From: Desulfovibrio sp. Fe33
Lineage (GTDB): Bacteria > Desulfobacterota > Desulfovibrionia > Desulfovibrionales > Desulfovibrionaceae
Direction: 5' to 3'
Length of the DNA stretch: 64,000 nucleotides
Assembly: GCF_028532725.1 (NCBI RefSeq)
Contig: NZ_JAQKGU010000002.1
Span: forward strand, 1-64,000
Position 1 is the first letter of the stretch. Every line of letters begins with the position of its first letter. This document shows, one piece after another, positions 56,503-57,669 of this stretch. The position numbers and the translations under genes are program-made. The notes beneath the pieces are model-generated. The model was given only the letters and a program-made list of their open reading frames with translations. It had not been told where the DNA came from and ran no database searches.

Positions 56503-56555
56503 CGAAAAAAGCCAGGGCCGCCGCGCATGTCCAATGCGCGGCGGCCCTGGTTTGT
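56503..56555 (-). terminator. Terminator of the Cys-type HesB-like gene
   Basis: CCAGGGCCGCCGCGCAT (56512-56528) pairs with ATGCGCGGCGGCCCTGG (56534-56550). On the minus strand it is followed by a six-base T-run. Confidence 0.85.
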
Positions 56556-56578: not shown

Positions 56579-56899
56579 TTAGCAGCCGCAGGAGCCGGTG
56601 CCGCAGGACGAGCAGCCGCAGCCTCCGCCGCCGATCTGGTTCTCGGAGGAGACGGTGAAACCGTAGGGGGTCATGTCGATGGACACAGCGCCCGAGGCTT
56701 CGGCCAGTTCTTCATTGATGAGGAAGGTCAGGTCGCCCTGCTCCACGGACTTGTCGCCCTCGCGAAGCTCGTCCAACGCCAGGGACAGGCGCGGGCCGGA
56801 GCAGCCGCCGTCGGCCAGATGCACGCGGATGGGCTGCGTTTCCTTGTCTTCGAAATATTTGATCAGTTCATTCTGAGCGGATTCGGTGACTGTGATCAT
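56579..56899 (-). CDS. HesB/IscA-like protein, Cys form
   Basis: 106 residues. MITVTESAQNELIKYFEDK, IRVHLADGGCSGPRLSLALDE and IDMTPYGFTVSSENQ match the A-type Fe-S scaffold fold. The first conserved Cys is in GGCSGPR. The C-terminus is Gly/Cys-rich (GGGGCGCSSCGTGSCGC), richer than the usual CGCG end. It may carry an Fe-S cluster or another metal. AGGAG fixes the start at 56899. The neighbouring paralog has UGA at the position of this Cys. It has its own terminator. Confidence 0.85.
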   Translation of the reverse strand: MITVTESAQNELIKYFEDKETQPIRVHLADGGCSGPRLSLALDELREGDKSVEQGDLTFLINEELAEASGAVSIDMTPYGFTVSSENQIGGGGCGCSSCGTGSCGC

Positions 56900-57085
56900 G
56901 TTCTTAATCTCCTGGGTGGGTTTAGTTTCAAAGAGAATAAGTACCATCTATTCAATGTAAAGAGAAAAACAATGGATGGCCGTTACCGTCGGCTCAACTG
57001 TCTGGAATTCCGCTCAAAAAAAACGCGGTCCGCCCATGTCGGCGGTTTTTTCGCCGAGGGATGCCGCGCGGCGGGCGCGGGGCGC

Positions 57086-57132
57086 AAAAAAGCCCGGGCC
57101 GCCGCGTACTGGGTACGCGCCGGTCCCGGGCC
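57086..57132 (-). terminator. Terminator of the Sec-type HesB-like gene
   Basis: GCCCGGG and CCCGGGC frame a bulged inner stem (GCGTAC/GTACGC). On the minus strand a six-base T-run follows. Confidence 0.75.
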
Positions 57133-57166: not shown

Positions 57167-57511
57167 CTAGCAGCCGCAGCCGCCGGAGCCCGCGGAGGAG
57201 CAGGAACCCGACGAGGAGCAGCCGCAGCTTGAGTCGCCGCCGCTCATGGGGTTGGCGGACTCCACGACGAATCCGTAATAGGTCATGTCGATCTTGATGT
57301 TGCCGGTCTGGGCCAGCAGGTCCTTTTCCACGAGGAAGGTGAATCCACCGGCCTCGGACACGTCGTCCTTATCGTTAGGCTCATCCAGAGCCAGGGTCAG
57401 GCGCGGGCCAGCTCAGCCACCGGCCGCGAGGTATACGCGGATCGGGGACGCTTCCTTGTCCTGGAAGTAGCCTTCAAGCTGCTTCTGGGCAGCTTCAGTG
57501 ACTTCGATCAT
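57167..57511 (-). CDS. HesB/IscA-like selenoprotein with in-frame UGA (Sec33)
   Basis: Read from the ATG at 57511 (AGGAGG upstream), the frame gives MIEVTEAAQKQLEGYFQDK, then IRVYLAAGG, a TGA (57413-57415) and AGPRLTLALDEPN. It continues without break to a Gly/Ser/Cys-rich end. The TGA aligns with the first conserved Cys of the paralog at 56579-56899 (GGCSGPR). A hairpin GGCTC-TGGAT-GAGCC begins 21 nt after the TGA, fitting a bacterial SECIS. HesB-like selenoproteins are a described family. Automatic gene finders would report only a fragment from 57361. A TTGACA lies at 57573-57568, but the -10 is weak. Confidence 0.85.
57378..57392 (-). promoter_or_regulatory. Candidate bacterial SECIS hairpin
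   Basis: GGCTC-TGGAT-GAGCC on the minus strand, nucleotides 21-35 after the UGA, with G in the apical loop. The Cys-type paralog has no such perfect stem at the matching place. Confidence 0.65.
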
Positions 57512-57669
57512 TATAATGCCTCCTAATTTGGGTCGGGAAATGAACAGGTAAGATCAATAGTACTCTTTGTCAAATCGAAAGTTCCCATGGAGGCCGGGCG
57601 GAGTTGACCGGCCAAGGGGTATGGGCTACTTTTCTACGTTCCTTCAACCGCTAGCCATGCGAGGCCTAG

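Follow-up and report, generated by a model that had tools for sequence, protein, structure and literature searches.

Sequence features of the locus

The window analysed in this study is a 64,000-nucleotide stretch of the Desulfovibrio sp. Fe33 genome (NZ_JAQKGU010000002.1, positions 1 to 64,000). It contains two neighbouring genes of the IscA/HesB family, separated by 267 nt, whose coordinates and associated signals are listed in Table 1. When TGA is read as selenocysteine (Sec), the first gene contains only one such codon, at residue 33, and ends with TAG. The second gene is an uninterrupted frame of 106 residues. Alignment of the two products is gapless across residues 1-89 with 55% identity, and selenocysteine (U33) is found opposite cysteine (C33). 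The original prediction gave correct coordinates and left unstated that the minus strand carries the two genes. It had described an in-frame TGA aligned with the first conserved cysteine of the neighbour, in agreement with this alignment. It had also expected a standard gene caller to truncate the gene, and the listed product is indeed a 64-amino acid piece (P0018) that begins after the UGA. The gene listed solely as this piece is corrected here.

Table 1. Features of the selenocysteine/cysteine gene pair in the window.
Feature	Position	Strand	Basis
Sec gene, IscA/HesB family, 114 amino acids, Sec at residue 33	57167..57511	-	translation, profile matches, IscA-fold model
In-frame UGA (Sec codon)	57413..57415	-	direct reading; UGA copies in 119/149 host-family genomes
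Bacterial SECIS hairpin (GGCUC-UGGAU-GAGCC), 21-35 nt past the UGA	57378..57392	-	comparative pairing, fixed synonymous codons
Likely ribosome-binding site AGGAGG of the Sec gene	57519..57524	-	direct reading; also upstream in genus rows; putative
Promoter-like TTGACA-N16-TTACCT upstream of the Sec gene	57546..57573	-	putative function; absent from sigma-70 scan output
Terminator-like hairpin and U6 after the Sec gene	57085..57132	-	z -3.06, 1/200 shuffles as good; consensus scan silent
Cys paralog, 106 amino acids, Cys33 opposite Sec33	56579..56899	-	open frame, profile match, alignment
Promoter-like TTTACA-16-TATTCT upstream of the Cys gene	56934..56961	-	1 found vs 0.4 expected in shuffles; weak, putative
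Cys-gene terminator, 17-pair stem then U6	56505..56550	-	scan and fold z -8.39

Family, fold and candidate ligands

Both proteins matched the NCBIfam model NF038090 (IscA_HesB_Se, cut-off 85), the Sec copy with 118.1 bits covering positions 1-101 of the 101-position model and the Cys copy with 109.4 bits. Both also matched Pfam PF01521 (cut-off 26.3), with 35.8 and 36 bits, respectively. Consistent with the expectation of an open frame and a family match on both sides of the UGA, NF038090 spans residues 1-96 and PF01521 residues 2-97 of the Sec protein. Both twins match NF038090 in full length above the curated cut-off, the UGA is aligned with the conserved cysteine, and nothing essential distinguishes them from this family; the Sec/Cys tandem belongs to the locus and not to the family model. 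In the model TIGR01911 (HesB_rel_seleno), Sec is part of a UxGP motif according to the available text of a review (PMC13188914), and the gene in the window encodes UAGP; however, both twins fall under the cut-off of 66.35, the Sec copy scoring 34.4 bits. The nearest named relatives are mostly from Pseudodesulfovibrio. Sec copies one residue shorter before Sec were observed at three places in genera g24 and g40 (L088:1568, L095:1108 and L096:2121); their motif is shifted to GUGGPR from the usual GGU(A/S)GPR, and the hairpin register is kept.

In the AlphaFold2 model of the Sec protein the core is confidently predicted and the tail is disordered, with residues 92-111 at pLDDT <50. A fold search with this model returned nine PDB chains at E <=0.001, with IscA 1r94 as the best (E 1.9e-06) and 1x0g and 2d2a also among the matches. 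The Sec protein thus resembles the IscA/SufA A-type Fe-S carriers in fold and in PF01521, and differs from them in carrying Sec for the first ligand cysteine, in a Gly/Ser/Cys-rich tail and in scores well under the cut-offs of the IscA, SufA and ErpA equivalog models.

The ligand set of A-type carriers consists of one cysteine and a C-terminal CxC. Candidate ligands in the Sec protein are U33, C96 and C98. The canonical three-cysteine set is, by sequence, not general among Sec copies, since CxC is present in just 34 of 70 Sec tails. This low frequency also fits the view that the selenoprotein is a selenol/thiol redox enzyme or a metal-handling protein, with a catalytic Sec and no cluster carried, as does the statement in the available part of a review that many uncharacterised selenoproteins are probably redox-active (PMC13188914). 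Disruption of the Methanococcus HesB-like selenoprotein, moreover, left nitrogen fixation unimpaired (PMC11097638, available sections). We consider a redox or metal-handling role less likely than not in view of the IscA/SufA fold matches, the alignment of Sec at a conserved ligand position and the composition of the host genome, in which searches with NF038090 and PF01521 detected no A-type gene beyond the two twins. Because PF01521 failed to pick up even the Sec copy in this search, it cannot by itself exclude further A-type genes. NifU-type and SufBD homologs are present in the genome.

The SECIS hairpin

A hairpin with G in its loop had been noted 21-35 nt past the UGA, and comparison with relatives confirmed it at 57392-57378. 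The fetched loci contained 70 Sec copies and 77 other copies; once ten unparsed rows and identical sequences had been removed, 68 Sec and 65 Cys stretches remained. A further 40 Sec copies, drawn from other families in the phylum, were added to the comparison. The five pairs of the hairpin all form in 106 of 108 Sec copies versus one of 66 Cys copies, and the loop is TGGAT or TGGAC in 107 of 108 Sec copies. The two outside Sec copies at L136 and L139 are without the hairpin in the common register.

Folding of the sequence after the UGA, proposed earlier as a check, gave a divided answer. The single-sequence fold is no better than chance (z -0.24 to -1.31, three cuts) and was dropped as proof of a SECIS in favour of comparative pairing, whereas relatives conserve the hairpin and show compensatory changes in it. 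Double compensatory changes were found at three of the five pairs: 21-35 (two in the host family and one outside), 23-33 (five outside) and 24-32 (one outside). Inside the host family the stem is nearly invariant, hence the thin covariation there. Among the 40 outside Sec copies, 194 of 200 cells pair, compared with a mean of 185.9 and a maximum of 190 in 2000 shuffles. A control with partners shifted by 1-3 columns gave pairing in 11-46% of cells.

Analysis of codon usage within the hairpin revealed fixed synonymous codons in the Sec copies. The alanine codon at nt 22-24 is GCT in 68/68 Sec copies versus 7/64 Cys copies having alanine (Fisher p 5.6e-30, kinship ignored). The next leucine codon is CTG in 68/68 Sec versus 35/61 Cys copies (p 9.8e-11) and the glutamic acid codon is GAG in 68/68 Sec versus 27/47 Cys copies (p 8.4e-10), both by the same test and again with kinship ignored. 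Rfam at the gathering threshold gave no match at the Sec gene; its sole match in the window is an ordinary FMN riboswitch (RF00050, 20298-20445 (+), 104.8 bits). This analysis provides a covariation-backed SECIS for a widespread selenoprotein family.

Decoding genes and distribution of UGA copies

The host genome (3.46 Mb, 24 contigs, 99.99% complete) contains all four of the genes for which a search had been suggested: selA (610 bits), selB (389 bits), selC (the tRNA-Sec; 79.6 bits, anticodon TCA) and selD (333 bits), the last itself with one in-frame TGA. A total of 149 host-family genomes, an even draw from a larger group, were searched with NF038090; 139 had a match, 136 of them over the cut-off. 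In the suggested comparison of orthologs around the UGA, relatives were found to retain this codon together with the frame that follows it. Of 126 genomes with selB over the cut-off, 112 carry a UGA copy, versus seven of 23 without it. When only genomes at least 90% complete are counted (n=121), the figures are 104 of 109 with selB and two of 12 without (Fisher p 1.4e-9, kinship ignored). Nine of these 12 near-complete genomes carry non-UGA copies only, one of them (G006) by a match of 56.9 bits, under the cut-off, and G101 has no NF038090 match. UGA copies were observed in G014 (L074) and G109 (L050), near-complete assemblies of 430 and 490 contigs, respectively, without a selB match over the cut-off; an assembly gap or a genuine loss of selB may account for these two cases.

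A search of the phylum (296 genomes) gave at least 171 genomes with a match, at least 131 of them over the cut-off. Outside the host family, among the matches listed, at least 107 genomes have a UGA row and seven (G248, G304, G321, G338, G375, G400 and G430) have only non-UGA rows. A candidate protein with two Sec residues in G334, a row with two TGA codons, was ruled out, the second TGA being the end of the gene.

These results bear on whether the UGA is an ordinary stop, in which case the gene would be a decaying pseudogene or encode a short peptide, and the 64-amino acid downstream frame would be dead or separate. That gene callers list only the downstream frame and that the single-sequence fold has weak z-scores would fit such a gene; the occurrence of UGA copies in 119 of 149 host-family genomes, the conserved downstream frame, the co-occurrence of UGA copies with selB and the covariation of the SECIS pairs across relatives rule it out for practical purposes, and we consider it extremely improbable. 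Judged by sequence comparison, 57511-57167 (-) encodes a selenoprotein and contains a bacterial SECIS element, and the combination of UGA gene, SECIS, decoding genes and fold family is close to certain.

Tandem arrangement and transcription signals

The 70 Sec-bearing loci examined are a non-random sample, in which L007/L062 and L054/L066 overlap the same places. By hand count, the Sec copy has a Cys copy as its direct neighbour in the same direction in 52 of the 70, at a distance of 64-397 nt. The Sec copy comes first in 39 of these tandem pairs and the Cys copy in 13. Among the remaining loci, eleven are without a second copy in the stretch fetched (some end at a contig edge), in three the Cys copy is 1.2-10.3 kb distant, in two the sole other copy has neither motif, and in two an odd copy is placed between the Sec and Cys copies. 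Paralogs without Sec or Cys at the residue-33 position occur in several loci. In genus g25 (L045, L047, L048, L050, L053 and L057) a third tandem paralog, with serine, alanine or a similar residue at this position, was found 130-134 nt after the Cys copy; it may be another duplicate that has degraded further or taken on a new role.

TTGACA with a later TACCT is found upstream of the Sec gene in 18/18 rows of the genus set. The exact TTGACA-N16-TTACCT has two matches in the host genome versus none for the reversed control, and it is a candidate for an unusual -10 element or an operator. In the genus, the upstream sequences of the Sec and Cys genes differ. From these different upstream elements and the terminators that each gene possesses, the twins are likely transcribed separately.

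It is plausible, as was originally proposed, that the two genes are used under different selenium or redox conditions; the separate upstream and terminator sequences and the Cys-only state of most near-complete genomes without selB fit this idea. The same upstream differences are also consistent with the Cys twin being a diverged paralog with its own job and not a stand-in for selenium. That view gains from the extra paralogs lacking Sec or Cys at the position in several loci and from the lower mean pairwise identity of Cys copies (48%) than of Sec copies (58%) in 23 chosen loci, a faster divergence that may reflect a different job. The retention of Cys copies only in nine of the 12 near-complete genomes without selB and the direct tandem in most Sec-bearing loci argue against it. 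A job of its own for the twin is a substantial possibility, to which we give somewhat under even odds; the alternative that the Cys twin is a selenium-independent stand-in appears about evenly balanced on the comparative data.

Order of appearance of the Sec and Cys forms

The statement that Sec replaces Cys holds for the aligned position. As history it is divided, since UGA copies dominate outside the host family whereas equal-cost parsimony places Cys at the host-family root. Four observations suggest that Sec came first: the dominance of UGA copies outside the family, the lower divergence of Sec copies, their proximity to the outgroup and a remnant in one Cys copy. In all 23 pairs the Sec copy is closer than its Cys twin to 16 outside Sec copies, although an all-Sec outgroup could favour this result. 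The remnant was found at L028:2148-2465 (-), where a Cys copy (TGT) retains all five SECIS pairs, which its sister copy in L029 does not; this hairpin looks like a fossil SECIS.

Against Sec first stands the equal-cost parsimony, with Cys at the host-family root and nine Sec-to-Cys and eight Cys-to-Sec changes; Sec as the root state of the whole parsimony tree is a product of the UGA-only outgroup choice. We distrust equal costs because each gain must re-evolve the same UGA and hairpin. Without regain of Sec, the parsimony tree requires 17 separate Cys groups.

The Sec and Cys copies are scattered in the trees. For 10 of 23 Cys copies the nearest row is the Sec twin from the same locus. A quick tree built from 131 copies requires 18 changes, only three of them forced by strongly supported branches. 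An AU test of the 23 chosen pair-bearing loci (46 rows, about 92 alignment columns, many weak forks) rejected a single Sec clade with a log-likelihood difference of 236. One old Sec/Cys duplication with faithful descent was rejected on this AU result, with the reservation that the alignment is short, many forks are weak and well-supported branches force only three changes. In the genus of the window, most Cys copies, including that of the window, form one well-supported group of 12, and the genus duplication therefore predates those species.

Repeated duplication and gene conversion would each yield such a scattered tree. Gene conversion within one old pair, in place of repeated duplication, has in our estimate just short of an even chance. 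The twins adjoin in the same direction, as conversion would favour, and the well-supported branches alone force only three changes. Both gene orders occur, which old pairs with rearrangement could also produce; however, the order varies by group, which is simpler with separate duplications. The rejection of one Sec clade stands against a single old pair, though conversion would also cause it. A tentative proposal, which we hold at rather less than even probability, covers both processes: in the host family a Sec carrier would have yielded a head-to-tail Cys twin on many independent occasions, or gene conversion sparing the UGA-SECIS region would homogenise old twins, and selection would keep the pair as the sole A-type carriers detected. 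If true, the tandem loci would constitute a replicated natural experiment on the contribution of selenium to Fe-S trafficking.

Comparison with known selenoproteins

The original prediction treated HesB-like selenoproteins as a described bacterial group, and the literature bears this out. A HesB-like protein was among the known selenoproteins in 2005 (PMC1088965), and a 2006 survey reported HesB-like selenoproteins in D. vulgaris and D. desulfuricans. This survey also gave two conversions of Sec to Cys among members of the family and noted that a Cys form in Desulfitobacterium hafniense retains a SECIS-like remnant (PMC1794560). DVU_1382 was named in 2007 (PMC1914089), and TIGR01911 is listed in two reviews (PMC9312934, PMC13188914). 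The gene in the window resembles these Desulfovibrio genes, which were compared by description only in the case of DVU_1382, in being a UGA-containing member of the HesB family; the available sections of both papers (PMC1794560, PMC1914089) do not mention a Cys twin. A search of PMC10779653 for HesB found no mention.

According to the available sections of PMC11097638, mutagenesis and 75Se labelling led to the discovery of a Methanococcus HesB-like selenoprotein, the function of which they call unclear. These sections also describe the Sec/Cys isoform switch of Methanococcus maripaludis, which is similar to the pair reported here in having a Sec protein and a Cys isoform in one genome. It differs in that it concerns archaeal methanogenesis enzymes with a known regulator, HrsM, whereas the pair in the window is known from sequence alone. 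No description of a tandem Sec/Cys pair was found in the literature examined, which lay largely outside subscription journals and was in part available as excerpts. Within these sources the protein family is well established, and the newer aspect is the widespread occurrence of tandem twins.

Proposed function of the twins

Overall, our analysis suggests that the locus encodes a SECIS-decoded A-type carrier and its selenium-free twin (probability about 0.8). SelB bound to the hairpin past the UGA would deliver Sec-tRNA (anticodon UCA) to codon 33. The predicted product is a 114-amino acid protein of the IscA/HesB fold in which a selenolate occupies the first of the conserved ligand positions. 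Its flexible Gly/Ser/Cys tail would supply further thiols, and C96 and C98 could be the remaining ligands. The Sec protein is most likely an A-type carrier of Fe-S clusters (or iron), and carriage of the cluster through Sec33 itself appears somewhat more probable than not. The adjoining Cys twin would most likely be a separately transcribed version with a related job that proceeds without selenium. The Sec/Cys tandem twins offer a comparative system for why some IscA-like proteins use selenium.
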